DNA from: Pteria penguin
Lineage: Eukaryota; Mollusca; Bivalvia; Pterioida; Pteriidae
DNA length: 64,000 nucleotides
NCBI GenBank assembly: GCA_035048485.1
Contig: CM068587.1
Location: 55,051,501 to 55,115,500 of the forward strand
Reading direction: 5' to 3'
Under the pieces are notes generated by a model. It searched no databases. It saw only the letters and a list, made by a program, of their open reading frames with translations, and was not told the DNA's origin. The position numbers and the translations under genes were made by a program. Below, in pieces: positions 182-37,338 of the stretch (its first letter is position 1; every line of letters begins with the position of its first letter).

Positions 182-10551
<10,370 letters not shown>

Positions 10552-14141: not shown

Positions 14142-14413
14142 AGCCGGTGTGGCCTAGTGGATAAGGTGCTCGGCTCGTGATCGAGAGGTCGCGGGTTCGA
14201 CTCCCGCCCGGGGCACACCGGTGTTCTGTCTTTCGGATGAGACAGTAAAAACCGAGGTCCCGTGTCACGGTAGGCGTGGCACGTAAAAGATCCCTCACTG
14301 CTTCGGGTGGGTCCGTTGCAAAGGTCTAAATTTGTATGCAATGCATCAGACAGATGCCGTCACCATATACGTGAAATAATCGTGGAGTGACGTAAAACAA
14401 TAATCAAACACAC
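14142..14413 (+). mobile_element. tRNA-derived SINE, main family, well preserved
   Basis: It has a clear A box (GGCCTAGTGGATAAGGTGCT) and B box (GGTTCGACTCCC), the core TTTCGGATGAGACAGTAAAA, and CACGTAAAAGATCCCTCACT. It ends with GTGGAGTGACGTAAAACAAT plus a CAAACA-rich tail. It is a good reference copy for the family. Two open frames on the opposite strand are by-products. Confidence 0.9.
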
Positions 14414-16406: not shown

Positions 16407-16886
16407 CTAGAGAATGCTACAAGATTTTGATCTTTTCTCTGTTTGACCTTGATTTGGTTTATCTACTTCACTTGAAGTATGCTCTTCAGTTGATTTGTTA
16501 TTATTTTGATATGATGCAATCACTTTTTCTGTTCCTTCTGTTTCAGATTTAAAATGCATTACTTTCACTTTGTCTTCTGACTTTTGATTTGATGCGATCA
16601 CTTTTTCTGTCTCTTTGATTCCAGTTGCTGAGGTCATAACCTTCTCTTTGTTCTCTAGATTGTCGTTTGATGCATTCTTTTTCTTGGCTTCATTTTCTCC
16701 AGTTTCAGAAGTATTTAATTTCTTTTTATCTTCTGGCTTTTGATTTGATGAATTAGCCTTCTCTACTTCTTTTGTTCCACTTTCAGAAGGTGTTACTTTC
16801 TCTTCCTTTGGCTGGCTAACATTCTCTTCCCTTGGTTTGCCAGGAGTTGATGCAGCTTTGTCTTTGTTATTTTGTCCAGCTAAACA
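16407..16886 (-). CDS. Lys/Glu-rich repeat tail and C-terminal CaaX box
   Basis: The last exon (159 codons) encodes a low-complexity hydrophilic tail with about four degenerate ~26-residue repeats (for example ATGIKETEKVIASNQKSEDK). It ends in the polybasic segment EKRSKS, then CSIL and a stop. A terminal C-a-a-Leu is the recognition pattern for geranylgeranyltransferase I, and an upstream basic patch commonly helps membrane binding. Prenylation is predicted, not shown. Confidence 0.75.
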   Translation of the reverse strand, partial: CLAGQNNKDKAASTPGKPREENVSQPKEEKVTPSESGTKEVEKANSSNQKPEDKKKLNTSETGENEAKKKNASNDNLENKEKVMTSATGIKETEKVIASNQKSEDKVKVMHFKSETEGTEKVIASYQNNNKSTEEHTSSEVDKPNQGQTEKRSKSCSIL

Positions 16887-19800
16887 CTGTAATACATTAA
16901 ATTACATATCAAAGCTTCTCACAGGGGGGGGGGAGCTTTCATTATGATTATTGATATCCAATAGATGATGTTCTTCAAAGAAAATTGTATCATGACACAA
17001 AGAACGATTAACTCAGCATTCACAATATTTCGGTCTCCTGACGTTCTTCCGGTGAATTTTATTTTTCTTATATCAGTTATGATACATGATGGATTTCACA
17101 TTACTTACCCTACTAATTCCAATAAAATTCACCGAAGAAGGTCAGGAAACCGAAATATTGTGAATGCTGAGTTTATTGTTCTTTGTTTTAAGTCACTTCC
17201 CTTTGGAGGACTTTTAAGATGTATCATGAAATGTTACATATATAGTCAAACCTCTTTAAATGATCACCTGTATTAAGCAGTTACCTGTCTCTAACAACCA
17301 CCTGCCTCTATACTAATTATCTATACAACATCAATCTGAATAAAGAGGCCTCTTGCCTTAAGTGACCACTTTTCCACTTTCCCTTTGGTGGTCCCTTGGT
17401 TTGATTAAAATGTATGCGAAAATATTATAATAAACTAGTGTTTGAAGGAACATATGTGCTGCTTGCTGACTCCTATTAGACAGAAAGATGTACAGACTGA
17501 GGGACGGACAGAGGGACATACAGATGTACAGACTGAGGGACATACAGATGTACAGACCGAAGGACAGACAGAGGGACAGACATATGTACAGACAGAGGGA
17601 CATACAGATGTACATACAGATGCAAAGACATATGTACAGACTGAGTGACAGAAGACATACAGATGTACAGACTGAAGGACAGAGAGAGGGACAGACTGAG
17701 TGACAGACAGAGGAAAATACAGAGGGACAGAGGGACATACAGATGTACACAGAGGGACATACAGATGTATAGACTGAGGGACAGACAGAGGGACATACAG
17801 ATGTACAAAAAGGGACATACAGAGGTACAGGCAGATGTGCAGACTGAGGGACATACAGATGTGCAGACTGAGGGACATACAGATGTACAGACTGAGGGAC
17901 AGACAGATGTACAGACTGAGTGACATACAGAGGGACAGGCAGAGGGACAGACAGGGACATACAGATGTACAAACAGAGGGACAGGCAGATGTACAGACTG
18001 AGGGACAGACAGAAGGACATACAGATGTAGAGACTGAGGGACAGAGGGACAGACAGATGTACAGACTGCGGGACATACAGAGGGACATACAGATGTACAA
18101 AAAGAGGGACAGACAACTTGGATAGACAGACAAATAGACAGACAGGTGAACAGACAGAAAAACAGACAGGTGGATGGATAGACCGACAAATGGATGGACT
18201 GAAAAGGTGATGCCAGACAAGAGGATGCCAGTCAAAGTGATCTTCATATGTCAAGATGCTTTAAGGGCGACACACCGACAGAAATTCCTGAAAGTGCATC
18301 ACACCTTCCATATTTATACTGCATGACGTAAAGACCACAAAGACTGTCTGGTGTTGTTTAGAATAAAACTTTAGCAAGATCTGATACAATTCCAAGCTGT
18401 TATGTCCCAAGCTTACGTCTTCTGCATACAAAATACATTTTGCTTGTATCTATGTAAAGTATGTACATGTTTCTAACTTTTGCTTGTATGAATGACGGAT
18501 GATTCTGTTTTGCCGCGGTCTCTGTACAAACATGCAATAACTTTGAACATAAAGCCATACTGACTCCTAATGATTGGAATTTCCCTATGGAAAGACCAAA
18601 ATAATGATGTATCAGCTATTTTTTGTGTCCTATTCAATGACTTAATTTATCCAGCTATAAGTATATATCAACTTCATCTTGAATGTTACCTAATAATCGT
18701 GATGGCCTGGTGTCTCATGCAGGGAAGTCTGACATTCATCCACTCAGCACAAGAGGCACAGTATATGTTTTAAGTTTTATCAACAGCCTTCATGGCTAAA
18801 ATGAAACATGAACATGCCCAATGACAACAAGGTCCAAATAAGGCCAATTTTGAAATGTAGGTCAAAAATCACCATCAAGGTCACGAGGTCAATGACCTTG
18901 ATGTAATTTTAAAAGGGCTTTATTCGTGAAGTATGCATGCCAAATATGAAGTCTCTATGTTTCACAATTGAAAAATTAAATGTTAAAGTTGACAACAGAC
19001 AACAAACAAACAAACAGACAGACAGGTCAAAAACAATATGCCCTTGATCTATCCATCTGGGGGCATAAAAAGGATTAAAGGTATACAAAGTATTCTGGCT
19101 TATGGTATATAGCAGAAAGCACTTCGTTGAAAGAGACTCAAGAGCTTAGCGGCTCAAATTATTTATAGGAATGAACCATTCATTATTATAGGAGAGAGAG
19201 TGTAGTGTGGGTGATCATACCTCACTCAGTGGTACTTCAGAATTTGCCAGCTTTGCTTGTTCCGAGTCTGTCGCTATTCGTGACCATATCATACTTTCTA
19301 TAATTCTTCCGTTACGAGGCTTGCTATCACTGAAAAAAAAAGTGCCAGATTCAGTCTGTTTAGTGAAAGTTGGCAAATGTAAACGGATTGTCTATTTAGT
19401 ATCGAATATTAGACTTTAAATGTCATTTACGTATATTGTTGAGATTGACACTGCTCAGTCAGTAACAATGCAGACTAGGGGTCAAAAGGTCATGGTTTCA
19501 ATTTCAATGTGTTAAATTTATGAAACAAAACTTTTCCTTCTCTCTTGACTGAATTAATGCATCGTAATATATTGGTTGATTCTATCAAAAGTTTGGTCCA
19601 TTGCAACATATATTTTTTTTTAACATTTGCCAGCAATATTTAGATGTTGAATGTACGGTATTGATTGAGTATATGATTTGCATGAATGAACAAAACCGAC
19701 CTTGACATTCCTTCCACAATATCATCTGCTAGCTTGGTAATTGCTGCATATTCCGTGGGCTCATAAGAAAACCCTCCTTCAAAACCTGCCCTACTGGAAA

Positions 19801-22800
19801 CTATTATTTTTCGAGATGGATTTAAGCCCTTCTTTAAGAAATCATTCCAGATCGGGTCTGTTAACGACACGTCACAATGCAGTAAATGGACAAATATAGG
19901 ACTGGGATTCAGATCTGACGTTTGACATACATACAACACACGTCTGCTCATGTCAGAACGTTGCTTGATTATGGACATGTGTAGTTCCTCGATGTGTGCA
20001 GAAGATTCCATGTAATCTTTGGACAAAAGCAAAACCACTATATCTGCTTCATCTAGTTTGGCTAACTCCTTCGGGGTCTCATTTGTCAGGAGAGTCAACT
20101 TAGCCTCAGGTACTTGCTTTATTATCAAGTTTCCGATAGAAATAGCCCAGTGGACTTTATCGCGAGACACACTGATGACCACTTCTGTGTCCTTGGCTTT
20201 TTTGGACACCGTTATTGGGGAGTTTCTTGTAAGTGCATGGTCTCTATTAATATGATATTCCTTCAGGAGTTCTGCACCTCTTTCTGCTGCACAGACACTG
20301 AAGTCATATGGTTTCTGTATTGAAAAATTATCATTAAGAATGAAACATAATGCAAGGTTTTCATATCTATTTTAAACATACTTCTGTCTTCCATACATAT
20401 GAATACATAAAATGTTAATGATTTTATAAAAAGTCATGGAATACAAAATTCTTACATAAAAGTAAAGTATATTATGTCATTGACACTCCCCCCCCCCACA
20501 CACACACACAAACACACACACACTTTTTGGAACAAAAAGAAATGTTACTTACCACATTACCATATATGGAAGTGCCATATTCAAGAAAACCCCTCCATAC
20601 TTTCAACTGACTTTAATCACTTCAGAAATGTTCGACATAAAATTTAAAGTTTTATATCCATATCCAATTCTTTTACTTTTAATATAACCATATTATTTCG
20701 TAATATCATTTAACAGACCTCTTTCTGTTAGTTGCAGAGCTGTAACATTGGACAGCAAATTGATTCATGTTCCCTCCAGATCTATCCCATCATGATGTAA
20801 CTTGACATCATTCACGTCCATTTGGAGCTATCCAATGTTACACAGCTCCGCAGTTAATGTATAATAATGTCACATAAAAATTATCAGCACAACTACAATT
20901 CTCGGAACTTTGAGTTTCAATTTCACTTTCACAGACCTATCTCCAAATTTTTCGGCAATTTTACTGTTTTAAGTAAACATTCCTATTTCGGAAAATGTAA
21001 CACCCCACAGTGTGTTTATTACAGAATATAGGGTATACCAATTCATAAAAAAAGATGTTAACTTCATTTGTATTGTAATAATTTCTTTTTTCACATCCGT
21101 TTCTTAGGCAACACAGTAAAATGTCATAGCTGCTACAAGTAGTTTTATAAAGTTTTTGACTGTATTAAGCACGTTGTCAATAATATTTCCCCATAAATGA
21201 GTTGTATACAAAGACAACTCGTTGACTTATATGGCTATTCTATTTGTTTTTCTTTGTCGATGACCACATAAGTAATGTAACAGGAAGAATATCAATATGG
21301 CTGCAATACTGTTTTAAGAAATAAATCTAACATTTTTCAATGGATGGAGGTTAAACCCCAGAGAAAGAAATGGAAACTGCATCCTTGTGCATAGTGCATG
21401 ATGCATAGTTTTCCATGCTTTTTTTTCAAGGTACAACTCCAACCAAGTAAAAAAAATTAGATTTATTCCTTATCACTTAATTTTTCTCTTATTTTTTTCA
21501 AACAAATTAACATTAAAAGTGAGTTTCTGTTAGGAACTATTTGTTTCAAACACAAGAATTTAATGGACAAAAGCATTGTGATTTGAAGTCATAAGGGAAA
21601 TTTTGTCTATGGAAGTACATGTATATCAAAAATTGCTAAATAGGCAAAAAGGAAAAATTTATTATGTGCCAGAAGTGAACATCTTTCACTTGTTTTGATA
21701 TTCAAAATATCACATTTCATCTACATTACGGCAGGTCATTTTATCACTATGTTAGATTACTGTGTGATTTATATTTTGTGAGTCCTTTGCTTCTATGTTC
21801 CACATTCATATCATAGACATATCATTGTATATATTTTACCAATGGTGACTGGGGAATAATAAGGTCCCTTTTTTTCCTCTTGACCCAGCTCCATGCAGCC
21901 ATTACAATTTGTGGAATAAGCTTTTCAAACTTGTCTCCCCTTCCATCCAGCATGGGGACCTTGGCATATATACCAGGCACACTTCCTATGTCCTCCACAC
22001 ATACTGGTAACAGGATCATTTTCTCGGACTGAAAAAAATAGATTTCAACATGGTGGTATATCAAGTAAAACGATTAAACCGGAAAAATGAAGGCTGTGGT
22101 GACTGTGGAAACTTGTTACAAACAACTGTGAGTGAAAAGTTTATGTTGTTGCTAGACACCACATCAAATTTCCTCTAAATGGTAGTATCAAGTGTCATGA
22201 TGAAAGCAACCATGTTACAATGTAGAAAGACAAAACCGCCCTCGGCAGGTGAGCTGGCAAATCTTTAGCTCCTCCCACTAAAAGGTTACAGTCACATCTG
22301 ACATTGTGATACAACCTGCAGTGAGGCCTGGTATTGGAAACCAAACACTCAGACTGTTACTGCCCTAACTGCCCCTCAATATGTGTGTATTTTCTTCCAA
22401 TGGATGTACTCTCTCATTATGTGCCCAACAAGCTATGTTTTGCCACACAAATGTATGAATGTGTTTCCACGGTGAAGTCAAAATCCAAACCTTCACATCA
22501 TAGCAAAAATTCAAGGTATTCAATAAAAAACTGACACCCCACAAAATACTACTGCTTTAAGTGACAAGTTTCCAGTCATATCGCTGGTTCTGCTTTCTTT
22601 TGACCTAGGAACTACTACAAAATTAATACGCTTCAATATTATTAAAAACCCCAAAATTACCACAAAATTTAGCTTGTCAGACATTAGGTCTCTTACGTCT
22701 GGTAAAATTTTAGAAAATGTCTATTGTATGTATACACTGGGACCAAGAGTGCTCATTAGCTCATATTACTTCCATTATAGTGGTAATAGAGCCTTACAAT

Positions 22801-25800
22801 GCGGTTGGTACCTGTTCTTGAAAATGAAAATTTCTGTCAAAAGTCAGCACCATGTATGCTATGTTAGGTAACTGTAATTTTATAGTGTTTGTACTGTGTG
22901 GGTTTGTTTCCCCATTAATTCCCATTTTGCTTTACCTGCTGTGATCAGGTCATATCCCCTTCTTCCTCTCTTGTCACAGCTTTCACTCAGTTACCGATAA
23001 CGAACCTTAAAGTTTTCTCAAAACAGTAATGCCATACCTACCTCATTCATATATCTAGCCACGGATATGTTATATTCCTCTTGACACATTATTGATGTGA
23101 GGTAGGAAGGCGTTATTAGAGTGATGATGAACTCTGAGCATTCAAGGGACTGATATAAGGTCCTCTGCCAAAGGCTTCCTGTAAAAGTCATGAAAATCAA
23201 GAAATTTAAGCCGTTTGTGTGTAGGTAATCTACGGAGTTGGAAGCAGGGCAGTATGAATATCATACAATAATTAGGGGCTACCATGCGAGTGTTTTACAA
23301 AAACTGACAGGGTATCGGTGAATCCACTGTCAGTAATTAAATTTCACCGCAAGCCATTAGGCGAGCAGTGAAATAGATATTTCTGACAAGGAATTCATCG
23401 ATACCCTGTCAATTTTTGCGTGGTAACCCTATTCTAATGTTTTGACCAGAAATAAGCTTACACAAGTTCATTTTGAACGTCATCAACTAAGTTGCTAAGG
23501 GGCATATGATGTCATAGCAAAAACAGCAGTGAAACGTGAATCCCCTTGTAGTTTTTGAAATGTTTAAACAATCAAAATGTGCGTTGAAAACAGATTGCAT
23601 TAGAATTTTAATTCAGTCAGTCAGCATCACCATGGTATGCAAAAATTGAGACAGTACTCATCAATGGCAAATCAATTACAATGTTGGATCCACCCATAAA
23701 ATATCACTCACCTGTAGTGAGCTCACTCCTGTCAAAGAAGACTTTGATATCTGGATGATGTTTCTCAAAGTGTTCCAGGAGTGCAACAGCCTGAGCAGGG
23801 AACTTGTGAGAGTATGATATAAAAACATCATAATCATCGCCAGAGTCGGCTTCCTTTTCTGATGCATTCTGAATGGCTAACGGATCCTCCGACAAGATCG
23901 ATGTGATGGCCTGTGTAATCTTTTCATTCTTGTCATCTCCTTCCTTACGAACTCTAAAGATACAAGTATGAAATTATGACATAATTAAAGGCTCATATTG
24001 GATATAAAATCATAATTGCTTTTTATCTACAAATAATCTAATTTCAGAGGCAAACGCTGTATAAAGCCTATTTAACTGTATATAAAAAAATTTCGTTTAT
24101 ACCTCAATGAAAGTAAAAAATGTCATGTGATAATTGGCCATGCCTATGGTTAAACGTTCTATGATAAGCTATGCCCATGGGCATTATTTCTTTCTTTCTA
24201 TCTGACCCAAATTTTGATTGGTTGGCGTGGCTATCAATGCACTAAATTTTAAAATTCCTTATTTACAATAAATATTTCAAATTTCATCTAAATGTTTGTT
24301 TATATTAATGGAAATAATTAAATTATAAGGAATGAAATTAATAATCTATTTTTCTATGAAGGTATACTTTAGTTTGTGAATCAGTTTTACTTCTATACCT
24401 CCACAGAAAAATAAATTATTAATTTCATTCCTTAAATATGTTAGAAAGGAGAAATAACCTGATAATTTTGTTAACACAATTAGGTAAGCAGTTACCAGTA
24501 GATATTACCTGCAGTCGAAGAATTGTATAACAGACATATACAGTGGTAGAGCCTGCACAGTGTCAATATACAGGGGGAAAAGCATCTTCTTTTCCTGCCG
24601 TCTGTTGCAGCAGACGGCCATGTTAAACATCTCCAGACAGTCCTTGTTATTGACATACGTCTGCGTCAAGATGGCTACTATCCTAAAAAAAAAGGTAGGT
24701 CATATTCAGTGAGTTGATCAGGGGTTTCAACGAGTGCATTTACCTTTGTGATAACCTGGCTATGAAAGGTAAAGCCAAGAAGAATAAATTCCTTCAAATA
24801 CCTATGCAGCTGCTTTATCAAGTACTGCCTATGGCGGCAAAAGTATCTCTCTCTGTGCACGAATGTAAAGAATACTAGAAATGAAACCTGGATGGCTGGT
24901 TGGTGTTTAACGTCGTTTTCAACAACTTTTCTGTCATATCATGACTAGGAAGCAGGAGGTAACAAACCTCTGAGACCTAGCGACGCAGTTCGGGAATCGA
25001 ACTTGGATCCCCTGCACCATGACAGATGAAGATAATAATGTTAACTAGAAAACTGACAAAGTCAGAAGGGCCCTGCAAAATGCCTGTCACCAGTATGTTG
25101 ACCTTAATTTGGTACCAGCAGAAAGATCTTGTGATAAGGAGCACACATGCCAAATATGAACACCCTACTTCCAACGGTTCAGTAGTTATGGTCAATGTTA
25201 AAGTTTTTCAAATGCAAGTCAAAGGTCACCGTCAAGGCTACATGATAAAAAATTTTGGTACTAACGGGAAAGTCTTGTCATAAGGAACACACATGCCAAT
25301 TATGAAAGCCCATCTTCTTATGCTTCAATAGTTTTACAGTCAATGTTAAGTGTTTCAAATACAGGTGACAGGTCATTGTCAAGGTCACATGATCAAAAAT
25401 TTTGGTACCAATGGAAAGGTTATGTCATAAGGAACGCACATGCCAAATATAAAATCTTTACCTGTGACAGTGTATTAGATATAGCCAATGTTAAAGATTT
25501 TTGCTGATGGACAGACGGACAGAGAGAATGATTATTATAGGGCACCCGCTTATGAAGCAGGCCCTAATTAACTCAGGTCAAAAAGTAGAAAAAATATTTC
25601 AAGTGAATACTTTCTTTCCTTTGGGTTGGAAGCCGGTGTGGCCTAATGGACAAGGTGCTCGGCTCACAACCGAGAGGTCCCGGGTTCGACTCCCGCCCAA
25701 GGTGCACCTGTGTTCTGTCTTTCGGACGAGACAGTAAAAACCGAGGTTCCATGTTCCGGTAATAAAAGATCCCTCACTGCTATGGGTGGGTCTGTTGCAA

Positions 25801-28800
25801 AGGTCAAATTTCTATGCGATGCATCAGGCAGATGCCGTCACCATATACGTGAAATAATCGTGGAGTGACGTAAAACAATATTCAATCAATCAATCAATCC
25901 TTTGGGTGGGTCCATTACATGTCAAAAAACAAGTCACAAACCTTTTGGCAGTTATCATTTTTTTATAGAGGGTGTCCTGCCATACTTTCTCTTTGTCAAA
26001 ATGTGGAGTTTCCTTATAGATGGTAAGGTCCTTGGAGCTTGATTTGAATTTCTCCTCGATGACCTCCACTTCACGCTGATCTTCTTGGTCAAAAATTATA
26101 AATATGTCATAAATGCGTTCAAGCTGTTTCACCTACAAGAAATAAATGATGCAAAATTACACAGCATTTTATTATATCAATCTGAAATTCCTCAATGTAC
26201 TGCTAATCTTCCATTAGGGAAGTTGGTTCAATAGTGAAAAACAAGACACTCAACAGCTAAAAATTTTTGGCCACCTATCTTCTACTGAGTCTTCAAACAG
26301 AACATGATGAACATATCTGTACAACTGCCCCTTTCATTTATGAGTGAAAAACTGTCAAATCAGATGATGTCACAGTACTTTACACCTCGGTCATACCTTG
26401 AAAATGTGATGTCATGAAATTCAATAAATATTCCGCGAAAGCAATGGGTCAACTCATCTCTGCTAGTGAAAGTGTCCAACATAAGTAAGTAGATGCAAAC
26501 GTGTCACTTTAAACAATGCAACATAACATCAATTAACTGTAGAGTTCATACATAATAGATAAGGAAACAATATTCCAAATCTGTTTTTAAGTTAAATCCA
26601 CTTTGAAATCAATTTACTAATATTCTACTACATTTCTTTTCATTTATTAGTCTAAAATTCTTATGTTCACTGTATGGCCTGGTGAGTATAACAATGGCTT
26701 GATCACTCTCATCTTTACCATTGTGAGAATAACAATGGCAACATCACTCTCACCTTTACCATGGTGACTATAACAATGGCTTGTTCACTCTCACCTTTAC
26801 CATGGTGAGTATAACAATGGCTTGATCACTCTCACCTTTATCATCCTCAGTACAACAATGGCTTGATCACTCTCACCATTATCATGGTCAGTATGACAAT
26901 GGCTTGATCACTCTCACCTTTATCATCCTCAGTATGACAATGGCTTGATCACTCTCACCTTTATCATCATCAGTATAACAATGGCTTGATCACTCTCACC
27001 TTTATCATCCTCAGTACAACAATGGCTTGATCACTCTCACCATTATCATGGTCAGTATGACAATGGCTTGATCACTCTCACCTTTATCATGGTCAGTATA
27101 ACAATGGCTTGATCACTCTCACCTTTATCATCGTCAGTATAACAATGGCTTGATCACTCTCACCTTTATCATCGTCAGTATAACAATGGCTTGATCACTC
27201 TCACCTTTATCATGGTCAGTATAACAATGGCTTGATCACTCTCACCTTTATCATCCTCAGTATAACAATGGCTTGATCACTCTCACCTTTATCATGGTCA
27301 GTATGACAATGGCTTGATCACTCTCACCTTTATCATCCTCAGTATAACAATGGCTTGATCACTCTCACCTTTATCATCCTCAGTATAACAATGGCTTGAT
27401 CACTCTCACCTTTATCATGGTCAGTATAACAATGCCTTGATCACTCTCACCTTTATCATCCTCAATATAACAATGGCTTGATCACTCTCACCTTTATCAT
27501 CCTCAGTATGACAATGGCTTGATCACTCTCACCTTTATCATGGTCAGTATAACAATGCCTTGATCACTCTCACCTTTATCATCGTCAGTATAACAATGGC
27601 TTGATCACTCTCACCTTTATCATCCTCAGTATGACAATGGCTTGATCACTCTCACCTTTATCATCCTCAGTATAACAATGGCTTGATCACTCTCACTTTT
27701 ATCATCCTCAGTATAACAATGGCTTGATCACTCTCACCTTTATCATCCTCAGTATGACAATGGTTTGATCACTCTCACCTTTATCATCCTCAGTATAACA
27801 ATGGCTTGATCACTCTCACCTTTATCATGGTCAGTATGACAATGGCTTGATCACTCTCACCTTTATACCTTTATCATCATCAGTATGACAATGCCTTGAT
27901 CACTTTCACCTTATCATCCTCAGTATGACAATGGCTTGATCACTCTCACTTTTATACCTTTATCATCATCAGTATGACAATGCCTTGATCACTTTCACCT
28001 TATCATCCTCAGTATGACAATGGCTTGATCACTCTCACCATTATCATGGTCAGTATGACAATAGCTTGATCACATTCACCTTTATCATCCTCAGTATAAC
28101 AATGGCTTGATCACTCTCACCTTTATCATCCTCAGTATAACAATGGCTTGATCACTCTCACCTTTACCATGGTGACTATAACAATGGCGTGTTCACTCTC
28201 ACCTTTACCATCCTCAGTATAACAATGGCTTGATCACTCTCACCTTTATCATCATCAGTATAACAATGGCTTGATCACTCTCACCTTTATCATGGTCAGT
28301 ATAACAATGGCTTGATCACTCTCACCTTTACCATCCTCGGTATGACAATGGCTTGATCACTCTCACCTTTATCATTGTCAGTATGACAATGGCTTGATCA
28401 CTCTCACCTTTATCATTGTCAGTATGACAATGGCTTGATCACTCTCACCTTTATCATCATCAGTATGACAATGGCTTGATCACTCTCACCTTCATTATCC
28501 TCAGTATGACAATGGCTTCATCACTCTCACCTTTACCATTCTCAGTTTAACAATGGCTTGATCACTCTAACCTTTATCATTGTCAGTATAACAATGGCTT
28601 GATCACTCTCACCTTTATCATTGTCAGTATGACAATGGCTTGATCACTCTCACCTTTATCATTGTCAGTATGACAATGGCTTGATCACTCTCACCTTTAT
28701 CATCATCAGTATGACAATGGCTTGATCACTCTCACCTTTATCATCCTCAGTATGACAATGGCTTGATCACTCTCACCTTTATCATCCTCAGTATGACAAT

Positions 28801-31800
28801 GGCTTGATCACTCTCACCTTTATCATCCTCAGTATGACAACAGCTTGATCACTCTCACCTTTATCATCCTCAGTATAACAATGGCTTGATCACTCTCACC
28901 TTTATCATCCTCAGTATAACAATAGATTGATCACTCTCACCTTTATCATTGTCAGTATGACAATGGCTTGATCACTCTCACCTTTATCATGGTCAGTATG
29001 ACAATGGCTTGATCACACTCACCTTTACCATCCTCAGTATAACAATGGCTTGATCACTCTCACCTTTATCATGGTCAGTATAACAATGGCTTGATCACTC
29101 TCACCTTTATCATCGTCAGTATAACAATGGCTTGATCACTCTCACCTTTATCATCATCAGTTTAACAATGGCTTGATCACTCTCACCTTTATCATCGTCA
29201 GTATAACAATGGCTTGATCACTCTCACCTTTATCATCATCAGTTTAACAATGGCTTGATCACTCTCACCTTTATCATCCTCAGTTTAACAATGGCTTGAT
29301 CACTCTCACCTTTATCATCGTCAGTATAATAATGGCTTGATCACTCTCACCTTTATCATCCTCAGTATGACAATGGCTAGATCACTCTCACCTTTATCAT
29401 CCTCAGTATGACAATGGCTAGATCACTCTCACCTTTATCATCCTCAGTATAACAATGGCTTGATCACTCTCACCTTTATCATCCTCAGTATAACAATGGC
29501 TTGATCACTCTCACCTTTATCATCCTCAGTATAACAATGGCTTGATCACTCTCACCTTTATCATCCTCAGTATAACAATGGCTTGATCACTCTCACCTTT
29601 ATCATCGTCAGTATAACAATGGCTTGATCACTCTCACCTTTATCATCCTAGTATAACAATGGCTTGATCACTCTCACCTTTATCATCCTCAGTATGACAA
29701 TGGCTTCATCACTCTCACCTTTATCATCGTTAGTATAACAATGGCTAGATCACTCTCACCTTTATCATGGTCGGTATAACAATGGCTTGATCACTCTCAC
29801 CTTTATCATCCTCAGTATGACAATGGTTTGATCACTCTCACCTTTATCATCATCAGTATATTAATGGCTTGATCACTCTCACCTTTATCATCGTCAGTAT
29901 AACAATGGCTTGATCACTCTCACCTTTATCATCCTCAGTATGACAATGGCTTGATCACTCTCACCTTTATCATCGTCAGTATGACAATGGCTTGATCACT
30001 CTCACCTTTATCATCATCAGTATAACAATGGCTTGATCACTCTCACCTTTATCATCCTCAGTATCACAATGGCTTGATCACTCTCACCTTTATCATCATC
30101 AGTATAACAATGGTTTGATCACTTCACCTTTATCATCCTCAGTATGACAATGGCTTGATCACTCTCACCTTTATCATCGTCAGTATGACAATGGCTTGAT
30201 CACTCTCACCTTTATCATGGTCAGTATGACAATGGTTTGATCACTCTCACCTTTATCATCCTCAGTATAACAATGGCTTGATCACTCTCACCTTTATCAT
30301 CGTCAGTATAACAATGGTTTGATCACTTCACCTTTATCATCCTCAGTATGACAATGGCTTGATCACTCTCACCTTTATCATCCTCAGTATAACAATGGTT
30401 TGATCACTCTCACCTTTATCATCGTCAGTATGACAATGGCTTGATCACTCTCACCTTTATCATGGTCAGTATGACAATGGCTTGATCACTCTCACCTTTA
30501 TCATCCTCAGTATGACAATGGCTTGATCACTCTCACCTTTATCATGGTCAGTATGACAATGGCTTGATCACTCTCACCTTTATACCTTTATCATCGTCAG
30601 TATAACAATGCCTTGATCACTTTCACCTTATCATCCTCAGTATGACAATGGCTTGATCACTTTCACCTTATCATCCTCAGTATGACAATGGCTTGATCAC
30701 TCTCACCTTTATCATCCTCAGTATGACAATGGTTTGATCACTCTCACCTTTATCATCCTCAGTATGACAATGGCTTGATCACTCTCACCTTTATCATCGT
30801 CAGTATGACAATGGCTTGATCACTCTCACCTTTATCATCCTCAGTATGACAATGGCTTGATCACTCTCACCTTTATCATCGTCAGTATGACAATGGCTTG
30901 ATCACTCTCACCTTTATCATCCTCAGTATAACAATGGCTTGATCACTCTCACCTTTACCATCCTCAGTATGACAATGGCTTGATCACTCTCACCTTTATC
31001 ATCGTCAGTATGACAATGGCTTGATCACTCTCACCTTTATCATGGTCAGTATGACAATGGCTTGATCACTCTCACCTTTATCATCGTCAGTATGACAATG
31101 CCTTGATCACTCTCACCTTTATCATCCTCAGTATAACAATGGCTTGATCACTCTCACCTTTATCATTGTCAGTATGACAATGGCTTGATCACTCTCACCT
31201 TTATCATCCTCAGTATAACAATGGCTTGATCACTCTCACCTTTATCATCCTCAGTATAACAATGCCTTGATCACTCTCACCTTTATCATCCTCAGTATGA
31301 CAATGACTTGATCACTCTCACCTTTATCATCGTCAGTATGACAATGGCTTGATCACTCTCACCTTTATACCTTTATCATCATCAGTATGACAATGGCTTG
31401 ATCACTCTCACCTTTATCATCGTCAGTATAACAATGGCTTGATCACTCTCACCTTTATCATCCTCAGTATAACAATGGCTTGATCACTCTCACCTTTACC
31501 ATCCTCAGTATAACAATGGCTTGATCACTCTCACCTTTATCATCCTCAGTATGACAATGGCTTGATCACTCTCACCATTATCATGGTCAGTATAACAATG
31601 GCTTGATCACTCTCACCTTTATCATCGTCAGTATGACAATGCCTTGATCACTCTCACCTTTATCATCCTCAGTATGACAATGACTTGATCACTCTCACCT
31701 TTATCATCGTCAGTATGACAATGGCTTGATCACTCTCACCTTTATCATCATCAGTATAACAATGGCTTGATCACTCTCACCTTTATCATCCTCAGTATGA

Positions 31801-34800
31801 CAATGGCTTGATCACTCTCACCTTTATCATCCTCAGTATGACAATGGCTTGATCACTCTCACCTTTATCATGGTCAGTATAACAATGGCTTGATCACTCT
31901 AACCTTTATCATGGTCAGTATGACAACAGCTTGATCACTCTCACCTTTATCATGGTCAGTATGACAATGGCTTGATCACTCTCACCTTTATCATGGTCAG
32001 TATGACAATGGCTTGATCACTCTCACCTTAATTATTCAGATCAATTTATTATGTCAAGGGACTTATCTTTTCACATACATATATCTAGAGAGCTCAAAGG
32101 AACATGCAATCCGTTTTCTAAGTGTCCCTGTCTGTACATCCATCAATACAGACAGACAGACTGACAGACACTGCAGAAAGTGATCCCTATCCCCTACATT
32201 GTTTAGCAGGAGACTCAATACTCAATAAATCAGTATTACATACCTGTTTCTGTGATTTTTTATGCCATACATTTTTCATGGCTGCAAACTCTTCACACAA
32301 TGTGTTGTCTTGGGGTCTATAGACAACAATCTTGAAACATTTGAGAGACAGGCCTGCCAGGATCCACCTAGCAGCTGATTCTGTCATCACCTGAAGCACT
32401 TTCACCTCACTGCAAGACTACAGATATCACATCTATACATATGACGGTAAAACCAAAAATAAAATTCATTGCTAAAAGAAATAACACAAACACTCTTTGC
32501 CGCAAATTTTCGGCCTCCTGGCCTTTATCAAGCAATAGTTAGAATACCGTATTTACTCGAATATAATACGCACCCGAGTATAATACGCACCCCCCAAAAT
32601 GACCTCGAAAATCATGAAAAAACGTCTAACTCCGTGTATAATACGCAGGGAAAAAATCCAAAACAAGATGTCAATTTCGTGTTGAAACAGCAAGACGGCG
32701 AGCTGAATTTGCTTTGCCGTATACTTTTTAAAGTGTAATCGCGTAACGTGTATTATTATCAAAAGCGACACAGAACGACCAATCTTTATTCATCGTGTGA
32801 TATCAACGCTTTTCTCTTTCATTTCATTTACAATCAAACTCGCATAACGATCGCTTCATTTTTTTTCTCTCGTTAGAATGAACGTGCGTGTCTAATATAC
32901 TATCTGGGACGTAGATATATACGTCCCTGATACTATGTAAACTTTACGCGGAGATCGCAAATGTTTGTGAAGACAAAATATATTAAAAAAAAAAAAAAAC
33001 AATGAATGAATGTTATCCAAACTGTCGAAACTCGTGCCGTTACGGTCAAGTAGTTTCACCTGTTGCGTAACTATCGACTAACCAATTAAGGATAAATCAT
33101 TATATCACCCGTACAATCTGCTAATCAGAAACCATTGCTAAATAACACGGCACAAGTATTCTGCCACATTGTAGACTTTACTCCTTTTATCGCCTTGGGC
33201 ATTTACTACGGGATGCAGACAGTATACAGACAATAGATATATCTCACACCTCGTGGGTTTGATTGACGGCTTAAACTTCAACGGACACACGCACTCCTCT
33301 AAATCCGCCACTGAAGCTTAAAAGCGTGGAAAAAAAGTTCCAGATTTCTAACCCTATGTATAATACGCAGTGAGAAAATGAGTGCGTATTATATTCGAGT
33401 AAATACGCTAGTACCCTAGATCTACTTAACATCCATCTTTACATGTCTAATATAAACAAGCTTGTTTATATTAGATATGTAAAGATGGAAAGAGTGTTTG
33501 TATTATTTCTTTTAGTATATTTTACTTCCCTTTGGAGGACTATTTATTGTATCTAAAATTCATTATACCACTCTGCTCTTTAACAATGTTGGTCAAAAGT
33601 CAGTATAAGGCATATTTTGAAGAATTTTTCTAAATCTGTTTATCTTTACATTATGAGAGTGTTTTACGGAACACATGCATTATAAAACAATAACTAAAAC
33701 CAAGCTGATGTAGAGACAGATATGGAATGCCTGATCAGAGAAAAGGAACTCAACCTGGAACAGCAACTGTACTTCAAAGATGAGGTTATAATGTAATTTA
33801 CGTCAAAGCTCTTTATCACTTCAGGATTTTAAAAATAAATTATGGTAAAAACATCATTGAATGCTTTGATGCAGGAATTTCAGTCATGAATGTTTTGGTG
33901 TAGGAATTTTGGTCATTGAATGCTTTGATGCAAGAATTTCAGTCATGAATGTTTTGGTGTAGGAATTTTGGTCATTGCTTTGATGTAGGAATTTCCGTCA
34001 TCATTGAATGCTTTGATGTAGGAATTTCAGTCAAGAATGTTTGGTGTAGGAATTTTGGTCACTGAATGCTTTGGTATAGGAATTTCGATCATTGAATGCT
34101 TTGGTGTAGAAATTTCAGTCATGAATGCTTTGGCGTAGGAATTTTGGTCATTGAATGCTTTGATGTAGGAATTTCAGTCATGAATGTTTTGGTGTAGGAA
34201 TTTTCTGTCATTGAATGCTCTGATGTAGGAATTTCAGTCAAGAATGTTTGGTGTAGGAATTTTGGTCATTGAATGCTTTGATGAAGGAATTTCAGTCATG
34301 AATTTTTTGGTGTAGGAATTTTCCATCATTGAATGCTTTGGTGTAGGAATTTCAGTCATGGATGCTTTGGTGTAGGAATTTTTGTCACTGAATGCTTTGG
34401 TGTAGGAATTTCGGTCATTGAAGGCTTTGGTGTAGGAATTTAGGTCACTGAATGCTTTGGTGTAGGAATTTTTAGGGGAGCAATACCTGGTGACCAGTCG
34501 CCAGCAAGGGTGTTATGACAGACGATTCTTGGTTTCGAAACACCGGCACAAAGACTCGGAAAATATCTCTGATCAGCTCTATTAGTGATGACCTTGAACC
34601 TCTTCCTCTGAGAAATGAAAAGTACAGACATACATGTGCGGATGAACTACAATCAAAGGCAGATTATTCATGACTTCTACAAAGTACGGTAAATAATATC
34701 TTTTGAATAATCCAGTTTTAAAATTAGAATGCTTATTTATTAGTTATAAGGATTTACTGATATATCAATACTATATCCTTAGTGGGATGATATCTGACAA

Positions 34801-37338
34801 CTTGAAAGTACACTGCATACTGTATATAAGTTTACACTGTCTTTCCTGATTAGTTCAGACACGTTATAGTTAGACAATAGTACTGAAAGCCGTGTGGCTC
34901 AGCGGATAAGGTGCTCGACTTGTGATCAAGAGGTCCCAGGTTTGACCCTTGCATGAACACACCGAGAGGTCCTGGGTTCGATTCCCGCCTGGGCACAACG
35001 GTGTCCTGTCTTTGGAATGAGATAGTAAAAACTAAGGTCCCGTTTCACGGTAAGCAAGGCACGTAAAACATCTCAGTGGATGAGGTGCTCAGCTCATGAA
35101 TGAGAGGTCCCGGGTTCGAATTCCGCCCTGGACACACTGGTGTTCTTTCAGATTAGACAGTAAAACTGATGTCCCATACTACTGTAGGCGTGGCACTTAA
35201 AATTCCTCACCGCTTTGGGTGGGTCCTTTGCAAAGGTAAAACTTTCTATGCAATGCACCAAGCAGACGCTTTCTTCATATTCGTGAAATAATTGTTGAGT
35301 GTTGTAAAACAACAATCAATCAATATATTACAGGGATCCCAAAACAAGCTCATGAAAATATCGGATCACCTCATAAAAAGTGCAACTGGTATTTTATTAT
35401 ACTACACTCTTATTATACTCATTCCTCTACTTAAAATAATATATATAACACAATAAACCAGTTCCAAGACAAGTAATATTTGAATGTCATCTGGTTGACA
35501 GTTTTACATTGTCACCAGGGGCAAAGGATACATATAGAGGATAACGTTTACAGGTAAATCAGCAAACAAAAATTATTGGCAAGCTTCTTATTTTAGCATC
35601 ACTTCACATAATTTGACCTATCACAGACAAGTATAATAAATATAACAATCTAACAAGGTTACAATACTATACAATGGTTGTATAATACCTTTCAAAGCAA
35701 AGAATTCTCCTAAAGGGAGAGGACTCAGGGAGGCTGTGAGTGAGCCAACAGGAAAAATTGGTCCTCAGATCCATTTCCCGTGAATATGATAAATCTCTGA
35801 GATCAATTCCTAGGTTTTGTAATAATGCACCAATAACAGTTCCACGCATAGGGGAATAATCACCTGTAATTACAAAAAAAAATATTCAAAGTGAAAAGTG
35901 TAATATATGTAATATAACATTATATGATATTATATGATATAATTTAAAGTAATGTTAAAAGTCAAATTTCAAGACCTCAAAAGACTGATTCTATTCATTA
36001 AATCTTTTTTAGATAAAAGGCATAGTAATACTATTTATAATAATGATATGATGATGCCTATTTTCTTATGAAAGATTTGAACATGGTTTACATTTATTTC
36101 CTTTGAATTTGAATTTGAAGAGATAGTCTTCTGCAATGATACATAAAATTTGATTGCATCAATGAGAAAAGGGTCCTAATGTCAATTTGTTTCAATTTTC
36201 ATTTACATGTATTGGCTTTGGTTTTATGTGTTATTTTTTTATTTATTTATTTTTTTTTTGTTTCTTATTTTGTATTTTTTCAGCATTTTCATTTTCATGT
36301 GACAATGAAAATAAGCCTTACTATATATGCACACTTTATGATGAATTTCTTTGGGTTTTGACATCATAGCCTTAACAACTCTTTCCTCATGGGTGCAATC
36401 ATTTAAATTCTGTTAATGTTTCAGCAAAATTTGAATACAAAAAATAAAAATCTTTTTTTCTAATTATAGATAATTAATACTTAGCAAACAGGCATGGTAC
36501 ATGTATATGCAATGGATATGTGAACAACATTTTTATTAATATCTGTTGTCACTTAAGGAATGACTGTCTTTTTTTCTAGGTTCATGGGGAATGAATTTGG
36601 GTGAACTTGGGCAAAGCGGTTCTCAAACGATTTGTTTGTTTCTCACCCAAGTTCATTCCCCATAAACCTAGAAAAAAAGACAGTAATTCTTTATATTTAC
36701 AATGCATTTTAAAAGGTTCTTTTTTGAAAACAAAATATAAAATTCCCCGTTATCAAACTGGCAAGGACAGAATTTTTCCTGCATGAAGCAGAAAAGTACT
36801 TCCGCAATATAGTGCGTGTCTAGAATGCTAAAAAATACTCTATCTGTCCAGGTAATTTTTTAACTGCTTAAAATTAACAGATGCATTAATTTCATTATTA
36901 CAATTCTTATATTTAATTAAGTAAGCCCCGCCTCTTTTTATATCACTACGCATGTGATTTGCCATATGCTACTTCCATGACCCAAGTTCATGGGCTGATG
37001 AACCGAGTCTGTTTAGCATGGTTCATCGAAGGAATTAGACTATCATTGTAAATATACAGACATAAACTCTGATTAATGCTAGTGCTAGGGTCAAACCAAA
37101 CTAAGCTACATCTGTCTATTTTATCCAACAATAATTCACAGACACTGAGTTAGAAATCAACAAAATGAACAAAAAAAAAACCCAAATTACAAACCGTACC
37201 TGAGAATGCTGATACCATTAAGATGTCCATTTTTTCTGACAGAGGCAGGGTTGTGATGTCTCCATAACAGAGTTGGATCTCAGAAACACCAAACTCTGTG
37301 GCCAGTTCTATGGTATCCTTGACCTTTAAAGTGGCCAT
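16407..37338 (-). CDS. Macro-like / triple-TIR / CaaX protein, complete, twelve exons
   Basis: Coding exons in transcript order: 37338-37200, 35863-35689, 34607-34487, 32417-32244, 26132-25942, 24682-24509, 23953-23712, 23178-23042, 22028-21840, 20314-19701, 19329-19221 and 16886-16407 (TAG). Every junction is GT/AG and the phases close to one 914-aa frame. Predicted order: macro-domain-like region (about 20-195), TIR-like 1 (about 208-325), TIR 2 (about 364-505), TIR-like 3 (about 556-720), a Lys/Glu/Ser-rich repeat tail (756-910), and the CaaX box CSIL (911-914). The start ATG (G at -3, +4 G) lies 2 nt after an AG acceptor, so an untranslated first exon is likely upstream. TIR domains are signalling scaffolds or NAD+ hydrolases; macro domains bind ADP-ribose. 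A role in innate immune or stress NAD+ signalling at membranes is inferred. No matching named gene is known to me. Confidence 0.82.
16965..17191. mobile_element. Fold-back element
   Basis: The left arm (about 16996-17060: CAAAGAACGATTAACTCAGC, ATTCACAATATTTCGG) pairs with the right arm (about 17124-17191: CCGAAATATTGTGAATGCTG, AGTTTATTGTTCTTTG). The adjacent ACTTCCCTTTGGAGGAC also occurs at the right end of the inverted-repeat element in the 32.5-33.5 kb intron, so the two may be related. Located in the last intron of the macro-TIR gene. Confidence 0.65.
17470..18170. repeat. Imperfect GACAGACAGAGGGACATACA minisatellite
   Basis: About 700 bp built from interleaved short motifs GGGACATACAGATGTACA, GACTGAGGGACAGACAGA and close variants. 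It lies in the last intron of the macro-TIR gene. Long frames on both strands (up to 298 codons, Cys/Ser/Pro/Val-rich on the minus strand) are translations of the repeat with no codon bias or start context. They are not genes. Confidence 0.85.
18780..19075. repeat. Dispersed repeat (AAGGTCACGAGGTCAATGAC type)
   Basis: Non-coding sequence with CAAGGTCA and TGACCTTGA motifs, CATGCCAAATATGAAG, and a CAAACAAACAAACAGACAGA segment. The same motifs recur at 25.03-25.5 kb and 5.3-5.7 kb. Probably a decayed dispersed element. Confidence 0.5.
19221..19329 (-). CDS. Short linker exon of the macro-TIR gene
   Basis: The exon follows a TTTTTTTTCAG acceptor and ends at a GAG/GTATGA donor. It reads NGRIIESMIWSRIATDSEQA and joins AG from the previous exon in phase 2 and the tail exon in phase 0. 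It is predicted to be a helical linker between TIR-like 3 and the tail. Confidence 0.7.
19701..20314 (-). CDS. TIR-like domain 3 in one large exon
   Basis: A 614-nt exon (residues 515-719) starts KPYDFSVCAAERGAELLKEY. It contains TEVVISVSRDKVHWA, KLTLLTNETP, EADIVVLLLSKDYMESSAHI, EELHMSIIKQ and RRVLYVCQTSDLNP, the alternating strands and helices expected of a TIR-like fold. Glu623/Glu624 lie in the helix that carries the catalytic Glu in NADase TIRs. It is much more divergent than TIR 2 and unlike it is not split by introns. A related Rossmann-like domain is possible. Confidence 0.65.
20488..20525. repeat. Poly-C/(CA)n microsatellite
   Basis: A run of C followed by CACACACACACA-type sequence in the intron upstream of TIR-like exon 3. 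Confidence 0.9.
20728..20858. repeat. Fold-back MITE-like element
   Basis: TTAGTTGCAGAGCTGTAACA, then TTGGACAGC, at the left pairs with GCTATCCAATGTTACACAGC, then TCCGCAGTTAA, at the right. Arms are ~30 bp around a ~70-bp interior. Confidence 0.65.
21310..21480. repeat. Copy of an ATGGATGGAGGT...TTTTCCAT element
   Basis: It contains ATGGATGGAGGT, GGAAACTGCATCCTTGTGCA, TAGTGCATGATGCATAGTTT and TCCATGC. Similar motifs in similar spacing are found at 55.80-55.99 kb, on the opposite strand in part. It is likely the same dispersed family. Confidence 0.45.
21840..23953 (-). CDS. TIR domain 2 (three exons), best conserved
   Basis: Exons 23953-23712, 23178-23042 and 22028-21840 encode YDVFISYSHKF (366-376, box 1), VFFDRSELTTGSLWQ (396-410, BB loop), CSEFIITLITPSYLTS (419-434), MCQEEYNISVA (436-446, with Glu440 three residues after Cys437, the usual place of the catalytic Glu) and MILLPVCVEDIGSVP (strand D). 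The basic stretch WVKRKKRD follows. Domain length and element order fit a full TIR fold. Enzymatic activity is possible but not shown. Confidence 0.85.
23270..23432. mobile_element. Inverted-repeat MITE (~165 bp)
   Basis: The left end AGGGGCTACCATGCGAGTGT, then AAAACTGACAGGGTATCGGT, is mirrored by ATCGATACCCTGTCAATTTT and GCGTGGTAACCCT at the right. It lies between the first two exons of TIR domain 2. Confidence 0.7.
24329..24436. repeat. Fold-back element
   Basis: AAGGAATGAAATTAATAATC, then TATTTTTCTATGAAGGTATA, pairs with TATACCTCCACAGAAAAATA, then AATTATTAATTTCATTCCTT. Arms are ~40 bp with a short loop. Confidence 0.7.
24509..26132 (-). CDS. TIR-like domain 1 (two exons)
   Basis: Exons 26132-25942 and 24682-24509 encode RIYDIFIIFDQEDQREVEVI (strand A and helix A), LTIYKETPHFDKEKVWQDTL (BB-loop region), AKRIVAILTQTYVNNKDCLE (strand C and the loop before the usual catalytic Glu) and KKMLFPLYIDTVQALP (strand D). 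Where NADase TIRs carry Glu three residues after the Cys, this domain has Met285, with Glu284 one residue earlier. It may therefore be non-catalytic. The intron between the halves holds a SINE and other repeats. Confidence 0.75.
24890..25022 (-). mobile_element. SINE family B, truncated copy
   Basis: On the minus strand it has a B box in ATCCAAGTTCGATTCCCGAA, then GTTACCTCCTGCTTCCTAGT, CATGATATGACAGAAAAG and a GACGTTAAACACCAACCA tail. It is the same family as the SINE at 680-850. Confidence 0.65.
25030..25500. repeat. Dispersed repeat with internal ~120-bp duplications
   Basis: Three related blocks share TTTTGGTAC, TAAGGAACACACATGCCAA, CAATGTTAA and AGGTCACATGATCAAAA. The composition matches the dispersed repeats at 5.3 and 18.8 kb. 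Non-coding. Confidence 0.55.
25630..25898 (+). mobile_element. tRNA-derived SINE with clear target-site duplication
   Basis: A complete main-family copy (GCCGGTGTGGCCTAATGGAC head, GGTTCGACTCCC B box, (CAAT)n tail). It is flanked by CCTTTGGGT at 25618-25626 and 25899-25907. Its right end is ~45 bp from the donor of TIR-like 1's first exon. Confidence 0.9.
26681..32029. repeat. Giant 41-bp minisatellite, about 130 copies
   Basis: The unit is CAGTATAACAATGGCTTGAT followed by CACTCTCACCTTTATCATCC and T, with CCT/GGT/CGT/CAT variants at the junction and TAACA/TGACA variants. It fills most of the intron between the macro-like domain and TIR-like 1. It is highly homogeneous for 5.3 kb. A 41-bp period destroys any reading frame and no coding potential is seen. 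Four units carry an extra TATACCTTT block. Confidence 0.97.
32244..37338 (-). CDS. Macro-domain-like N-terminal region (four exons)
   Basis: Exons 37338-37200, 35863-35689, 34607-34487 and 32417-32244 encode residues 1-203. Features reminiscent of a divergent macro fold are GDITTL (26-31) after a beta strand, a hydrophobic strand MDILMVSAFSGDYSP (37-51) followed by GTVIGALL, and a second glycine loop LLATGHQ (139-145). A C-terminal helix-strand pair, SAARWILAGLSLKCFKIVVY, follows. The third exon must be read in the frame giving RSSLIELIRDIFRVFVPVF and LLATGHQ; another open frame over the same bases (34440-34631) does not join its neighbours. The family assignment is by motif only. It could be a related Rossmann-like domain of unknown function, and ligand binding is not established. 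Confidence 0.6.
32471..33517. mobile_element. ~1-kb inverted-repeat element with nested element
   Basis: The left end AAAAGAAATAACACAAACAC, then TCTTT, is mirrored by AAAGAGTGTTTGTATTATTT, then CTTTT, at 33489-33513. Inside is a second pair (about 32550 and 33405) of CGTATTTACTCGAATATAAT / ATTATATTCGAGTAAATACG, and near the right end a near-perfect palindrome (33431-33485). No transposase frame is present. Family unassigned. Confidence 0.65.
32550..33408. mobile_element. Nested element with CGTATTTACTCGAATATAAT ends
   Basis: About 0.86 kb, bounded by perfect 24-bp inverted ends that extend to GCGTATTA/TAATACGC. Additional internal TATAATACGCA repeats lie near both ends. It lacks a coding region and is probably a non-autonomous DNA transposon; target duplication is not resolved. 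Confidence 0.65.
33851..34470. repeat. ~31-bp minisatellite next to a splice donor
   Basis: About 20 degenerate units of TTGAATGCTTTGGTGTAGGA plus ATTTCAGTCA. The array ends only ~16 bp from the donor side of the exon at 34487-34607, so intron 3 of the macro-TIR gene begins almost directly with the array. Confidence 0.85.
34887..35325 (+). mobile_element. Composite main-family SINE with internal duplication
   Basis: It carries two tRNA-like heads in one element. A first A-box region near 34895 and B-box-like segments near 34937 and 34975 are followed by a core part. A second partial head (GTGGATGAGGTGCTCAGCTC with GGTTCGAATTCC) near 35075-35120 and a complete core and tail follow. Probably two insertions or a template switch. 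Confidence 0.7.
36557..36690. repeat. Strong fold-back hairpin
   Basis: GACTGTCTTTTTTTCTAGGT, then TCATGGGGAATGAA, pairs with TTCATTCCCCATAAACCTAG, then AAAAAAAGACAGT. The stem is ~50 bp with few mismatches and the loop ~35 bp. It is in intron 1 (after the start exon) of the macro-TIR gene. Confidence 0.75.

Follow-up and report, generated by a model that had tools for sequence, protein, structure and literature searches.

A single-copy gene of Pteria penguin joining a macro-type domain to three TIR domains belongs to an old animal family with bacterial macro–TIR relatives

The window considered here is a stretch of 64,000 nucleotides from the genome of the bivalve Pteria penguin (contig CM068587.1, positions 55,051,501 to 55,115,500), and its main feature is a gene on the minus strand (Table 1). 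An earlier reading of the sequence, the original prediction, had joined twelve exons in phase to one protein of 914 residues with a macro-like region, three TIR-like domains and a C-terminal CSIL. This gene structure holds, since all twelve exons fit with GT donors, AG acceptors and compatible phases and the only stop is the terminal one. The acceptor used for exon 4 yields four residues that align gap-free to five homologues. By eye, eight of the eleven junctions (1-2, 2-3, 3-4, 5-6, 6-7, 7-8, 8-9 and 9-10) flow into clear alignment with the Pinctada protein, junction 7-8 lying within the BB-loop of TIR2, and junctions 4-5, 10-11 and 11-12 fall in poorly aligning linker or tail. The domain borders on the 914 residues (macro 1-194, TIR1 208-346, TIR2 365-502, TIR3 556-717) are close to those proposed before. 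This form was used for domain borders, column counts, hydropathy, the whole-protein Pfam scan and the BB-loop pattern counts; most homology searches with the spliced protein used a 910-residue form, shorter by the four residues of exon 4, and the separate Pfam scans of the N-terminal domain (N-domain), TIR1, TIR2 and TIR3 used pieces with rough exon joins.

Matches to the N-domain at E ≤ 1 in the 838-Mb genome of Pteria penguin are solely the four N-domain exons of this gene, which by this one search is single copy. The same genome holds at least 92 Pfam TIR matches at E ≤ 0.001, many of them clustered, and thus a large TIR repertoire around the single-copy gene. Intron 4 contains a satellite of about 130 copies of a 41-bp unit (window 26685-32029).

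Table 1. Coding features of the macro–TIR gene, in window positions
Feature	Position	Strand	Basis
Whole coding region, 12 exons, 914 residues	16407..37338	-	In-phase GT/AG chain and junction alignments
Exon 1, residues 1-46: macro domain start, GDIT motif and VSAFS	37200..37338	-	Splice model; animal/bacterial conservation
Exon 2, residues 47-104: macro domain (GDY, GTVIGAL, CW, LCFE)	35689..35863	-	Splice model; conservation
Exon 3, residues 105-145: macro domain, ATGHQ loop	34487..34607	-	Splice model; conservation; PDB profile alignments
Exon 4, residues 146-203: C-terminal part of macro domain	32244..32417	-	Acceptor 32417 fits five homologues
Exon 5, residues 204-266: first half of TIR1	25942..26132	-	Pfam TIR_2 5.7e-7; TIR profile from bacterial macro–TIR proteins 5.8e-29
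Exon 6, residues 267-324: second half of TIR1; CLEM replaces C-x-x-E	24509..24682	-	Column counts
Exon 7, residues 325-405: TIR1 end, linker, TIR2 strand A to BB-loop (YDVFISYSH ... FFDRSELTTG)	23712..23953	-	Pfam TIR_2 1.6e-13
Exon 8, residues 406-451: TIR2 core, CQEE	23042..23178	-	Splice model; column counts
Codon of TIR2 Glu440, predicted catalytic glutamate	23075..23077	-	Glu in 54/54 TIR2 rows
Exon 9, residues 452-514: TIR2 end and linker	21840..22028	-	Splice model
Exon 10, residues 515-718: TIR3 (556-717)	19701..20314	-	Third Pfam TIR_2 stretch on 914 residues; animal TIR3 profile 162 bits
Exon 11, residues 719-755: tail	19221..19329	-	Splice model
Exon 12, residues 756-914 and stop: Lys/Glu/Ser-rich tail	16407..16886	-	Splice model
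CaaX box CSIL at C-terminus	16410..16421	-	Cys at -4 in 45/52, Leu last in 42/52 models

A first search with the N-domain found 15 bivalve proteins and one brittle-star protein, and a search with the alignment of these 16 found 73; the groups gained are gastropods, a chiton, the brachiopod Lingula, two nemerteans, a starfish, sea urchins, a feather star and two hemichordates. The matching architecture is therefore present in molluscs and in further invertebrate phyla. No vertebrate, arthropod or nematode is named among the 73 proteins, although a word-based search of this kind does not prove their absence. From these searches 59 animal-type rows were assembled (the window protein, the 16 of the first search and 42 of the alignment search), and 57 of them hold the macro domain, TIR1, TIR2 and TIR3 in this order within one protein, which argues that the exons belong to one gene and not to several. 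The two exceptions, P0172 (555 residues) and P0180 (380 residues), are shorter models that end before TIR3 or TIR2.

There are also relatives in bacteria. A scan of genome contigs matched 24 stretches, three of which encode relatives at 35-40% identity, compact proteins of 348-383 residues with a macro-like domain followed by one TIR. A protein search with the member from Gemmatimonadetes gave 250 proteins at E ≤ 1e-3; among the best 120 of these 250, 114 are 320-400 residues long. Profiles built from 118 of 122 bacterial proteins, those of more than 300 residues, match the window protein at 5.1e-46 for the macro domain and at 5.8e-29, 5.4e-32 and 1.8e-6 for TIR1, TIR2 and TIR3, and on these matches the window protein is homologous to the bacterial macro-like–TIR family. 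The bacterial proteins (about 345 residues; P0017-P0138, P0181-P0190) share with it a macro domain of the SAF/CW/CFE type followed by TIR, but they have a single TIR and neither the long tail nor a conserved CaaX box. The family is sparse in sequenced genomes: of 395 sampled in each of three phyla, those of L010, L009 and L011, it occurs in one, two and one, counts that include the centre genome itself. Among viral contigs 51 stretches fitted the pattern and none was confirmed, and tblastn searches of plasmids (queries P0017 and P0073) and phages (query P0073) gave no match at the limits used. A different multi-TIR arrangement occurs in P0194, a metagenome protein of 1279 residues with four TIR stretches, DUF4062 and SAVED.

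The gene context was considered at four bacterial loci, two of them (L011 and L020) judged by eye. In Flavihumibacter the macro–TIR gene is preceded on the same strand, at a distance of 10 bp, by a gene for a patatin-like phospholipase, which matches a PADLOC phospholipase effector at 9.3e-54. On the Gemmatimonadetes contig L009 the Hachiman genes hamA/hamB (475-3997) lie upstream of the macro–TIR gene in the same orientation, separated from it by one unassigned open reading frame. The proximity to defence-type genes at two of four loci is suggestive.

The three TIR-like domains were recognised by Pfam and in part by structure. On the 914 residues Pfam TIR_2 matches three stretches, over its cut-off, at 1.3e-33 (116.5 bits), while the TIR3 piece alone reaches 20.7 bits, under the cut-off of 28. 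Structure prediction gives TIR folds for TIR1 and TIR2 of the Pinctada orthologue, TIR3 being outside the structural rows listed, and the structural neighbours of this TIR2 include the TIRs of SARM1, MAL and MyD88. The three domains are not equal. Counted over non-overlapping matches of more than 100 residues (54 of the 59 rows for TIR2, 56 each for TIR1 and TIR3), TIR2 has the glutamate of the C-x-x-E site and the BB-loop glycine in 54 of 54 rows. In TIR1 this glutamate is replaced by Gln, Met, Leu, Lys or His in 54 of 56 rows, and the BB-loop glycine occurs in one of 56. A loose BB-loop pattern is found in none of 59 rows for TIR3, compared with 52 of 59 for the best TIR2 matches. TIR2 alone retains both the glutamate and the BB-loop pattern. 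The catalytic role of the glutamate is known from SARM1 and from bacterial TIR NADases, and TIR2 resembles such NADases in sequence, with a catalytic-type glutamate in helix C and a BB-loop.

The N-terminal region had been described as macro-like, and a macro fold was indeed obtained for the N-domain of the Pinctada orthologue by structure prediction and fold search, with the macro domains of macroH2A and PARP9 among the best matches. By its modelled fold, the N-domain belongs to the macro domain superfamily. It shares this fold with the macro domains of PARP9/PARP14 and macroH2A, but these are only about 10-19% identical in the structural rows, have other partners and lack a TIR. The first-ranked Foldseek row is an SPX-domain entry (7d3y_B), and Vtc4 SPX entries align to the N-domain too; we take the aligned part of these entries to be a macro-type crystallisation carrier. 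The 203-residue N-domain matches no Pfam family at E ≤ 1, no PADLOC or NCBIfam model and, as a single sequence, no PDB entry at E ≤ 1. The Pfam scan of all 914 residues returned just TIR_2, TIR and one sub-threshold zinc finger, and no macro model. The bacterial N-domain likewise lies outside the Pfam, PADLOC and NCBIfam models. Common positions, among them G-D, S-A-F, Y, G-A-L, D-L-R, C-W, C-F-E, G-x-Q and W, are conserved in at least 90% of 51 animal and at least 85% of 135 bacterial macro domains.

The C-terminal CSIL was confirmed and is a conserved CaaX box. Among the 52 models with at least 40 residues after TIR3 (a model with a CTTG end just 12 residues past TIR3 was left out), 45 have Cys at -4, although Cys makes up on average just 0.4% of the residues at -5 to -40 in the same 45 models, and 42 end in Leu. 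The tails of the models with a CaaX box are 44-303 residues long. Leucine as last residue of a CaaX box favours geranylgeranylation, and anchoring to a membrane in cells is predicted.

For the phylogeny of the macro domain, 29 of the 51 usable animal rows were combined with 30 bacterial rows, taken from the 135 at less than 55% identity. Animals are on one side of a branch (100/99) and bacteria on the other. Within the animals, echinoderms and hemichordates (94/86), the brachiopod and nemerteans (96/80) and molluscs (100/100) form groups, as do gastropods (96/77), bivalves (85/90) and the window protein together with Pinctada (100/99). The macro domains of animals are thus a single group whose branching mirrors the animal tree, so the gene is old and vertically inherited. 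In the TIR tree, TIR1 (95/99), TIR2 (55/60) and TIR3 (100/99) form separate orthologue groups that broadly repeat the animal pattern, and the triplication should therefore predate the bilaterian split. To judge by both trees, animals have retained the macro–TIR core from the bilaterian ancestor onwards or for longer still; far from being an invention of molluscs, the module represents an old family of animals with macro–TIR relatives in bacteria. Because the spread is greater on the bacterial side, we infer that bacteria gave this core to animals, on a tree that does not itself place the root.

Taken together, we give about an even chance to a prenylated, cytosol-facing NAD+-signalling protein, in which TIR2 is the enzyme, TIR1 and TIR3 serve as scaffolds and ADP-ribose-type ligands are bound by the macro domain, all held at a membrane. 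TIR2 would convert NAD+ to an ADP-ribose-type product or exchange nicotinamide for another base. TIR1, at the position of the lone bacterial TIR, and TIR3 would be non-enzymatic or weakened copies that help TIR2 to assemble within one chain. The macro domain would bind ADP-ribose, a related dinucleotide or NAD+ and thereby gate or report TIR2, and the geranylgeranylated CaaL box would tether the long flexible tail to the membrane. The role would most likely be cell-autonomous defence or stress-induced death.

Several observations weigh against this interpretation. A TIR glutamate by itself is insufficient proof of NADase activity, and TIR3 keeps the glutamate at the aligned position in 50 of 56 rows, so that the case for its inactivity depends on the BB-loop. 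In the TIR tree, which is weakly rooted, the bacterial TIRs join TIR1 and TIR3 (95/89) and leave TIR2 outside; a separate source of TIR2 or another order of duplications is therefore possible, and the TIR2 group is itself weakly supported. The animal N-domain profile reaches known macro chains of the PDB weakly (best E 0.014), and the packing of the domains against each other is modelled unreliably (predicted template modelling score 0.54). Seven of the 52 long-tailed models lack the CaaX box. By eye, the surroundings of L011 and L020 hold no defence-type gene, and no TIR could be made out in the macro open reading frame of L020.

Among the alternatives, a scaffold without enzymatic activity is the likeliest, although we consider it rather unlikely. 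The protein would then be a MyD88-like cytosolic adaptor that acts by TIR–TIR assembly and is recruited by its macro domain to ADP-ribosylated targets. The missing glutamate of TIR1 and the MAL and MyD88 TIRs among the neighbours of TIR2 would fit such a role, as would the likeness to the macro domains of macroH2A and PARP9, which are binders rather than hydrolases. Against it stand the invariant glutamate and BB-loop glycine of TIR2 and the C-x-x-E site in all 119 bacterial relatives with a TIR. Furthermore, the family and the bacterial TIRs stand apart from eight other TIRs of the same genome and four other stretches, in a split that is weak (58/40).

The macro domain had been proposed as a possible sensor or eraser, and of these two the sensor is favoured. 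As an eraser it would limit the signal by hydrolysis, either stripping ADP-ribose from substrates or breaking down the product of the TIR. Many macro domains are hydrolases and the core residues are strongly conserved here; two metagenome proteins of the bacterial type (P0191, P0192) carry a Nudix domain before macro and TIR, a fusion that fits ADP-ribose chemistry and suggests that some members process an ADP-ribose product. Nevertheless, one of the 186 macro domains examined has an N-A-A-N-type pattern, S-A-F occupying the aligned positions, so a reaction of the MacroD type is unlikely, though some other chemistry is conceivable. The eraser appears improbable to us, and since the motif typical of MacroD-type ADP-ribosyl hydrolases is missing, a binder or sensor is the likelier function by sequence. 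A SARM1-like NADase for developmental or axon-type degeneration instead of immunity is very doubtful, because neither ARM nor SAM is among the Pfam matches of the 914 residues at E ≤ 1 and two of the four bacterial loci are near defence-type genes.

The proposed NAD+-signalling protein can be compared with known systems. In Thoeris with a TM-macro effector, ADP-ribose or imidazole adenine dinucleotide is produced by the TIR protein ThsB; the ThsA macro domain binds this product, ADP-ribose being held by an Asp and a Ser/Gly/Thr loop, and oligomerises (PMC11204291). These residues may correspond to the GDIT Asp and the T-G loop, both retained here according to weak PDB profile alignments to PARP14 and AF1521. 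The combination of a TIR enzyme with a macro domain that reads an ADP-ribose-type nucleotide at a membrane, reported there, is predicted here. In contrast to the two genes of Thoeris and the transmembrane helices of ThsA, the window protein is one chain with three TIRs and a CaaX end. A separate transmembrane effector gene is absent, and the 914 residues have a top 19-residue hydropathy window with a mean of 1.41, which by description sets the protein apart from ThsA. By analogy, it would be a one-chain counterpart of Thoeris with TM-macro ThsA. We would put forward, as no more than a tentative possibility, a full NAD+ circuit in one animal protein: TIR2 makes ADP-ribose or a dinucleotide formed by base exchange, which is read at the membrane by the macro domain of its own chain or of an adjacent one. 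Such a protein would be TM-macro Thoeris in fused form, acquired from bacteria before the bilaterian radiation and apparently absent from vertebrates.

SARM1 is likewise an animal TIR NADase, and its TIR is matched structurally by TIR2 of the Pinctada orthologue, but it has ARM and SAM domains where the window protein has a macro domain and two further TIRs. TIR proteins of the ecTIR-DC type are described as widespread in invertebrates and apparently absent in vertebrates (PMC6321704, PMC5549309, PMC6836662); the comparison with these families is drawn from citing descriptions. The TIR part of the gene may be catalogued among them.

The window also contains features on the plus strand. A series of exons at 44565-59799 has Pfam VWA matches in 44565-44978, 51234-51851, 54374-55054 and 59230-59799 and probably represents one or more multi-vWA genes. 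A C-terminal exon of an AAA ATPase at 9415-9807 resembles, by eye, a proteasome regulatory ATPase. Three tRNA-family matches (9139-9211, 14143-14215 and 25632-25704) are perhaps tRNA-derived short interspersed repeats.

Among the open-licence papers that our searches returned, no title or abstract describes the animal family or the bacterial macro–TIR fusion. A TIR atlas reports uncharacterised TIR clades in molluscs, and its main text does not contain the terms macro domain or macrodomain (PMC13142454). The gene may thus be an old, apparently unstudied NAD-based alarm of the cell. Single copy by one search and with relatives in oysters, scallops, mussels, abalones and sea urchins, it lends itself to tests in cultured species. 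What is known of TIR enzymology in animals comes largely from SARM1. If the proposed NAD+ signalling is true, the gene would represent a second animal family, old and widely conserved, that combines an intact TIR active site with a nucleotide-binding-type domain, and through its living bacterial counterparts one could test directly whether a working NAD+-signalling circuit passed from bacteria to animals.
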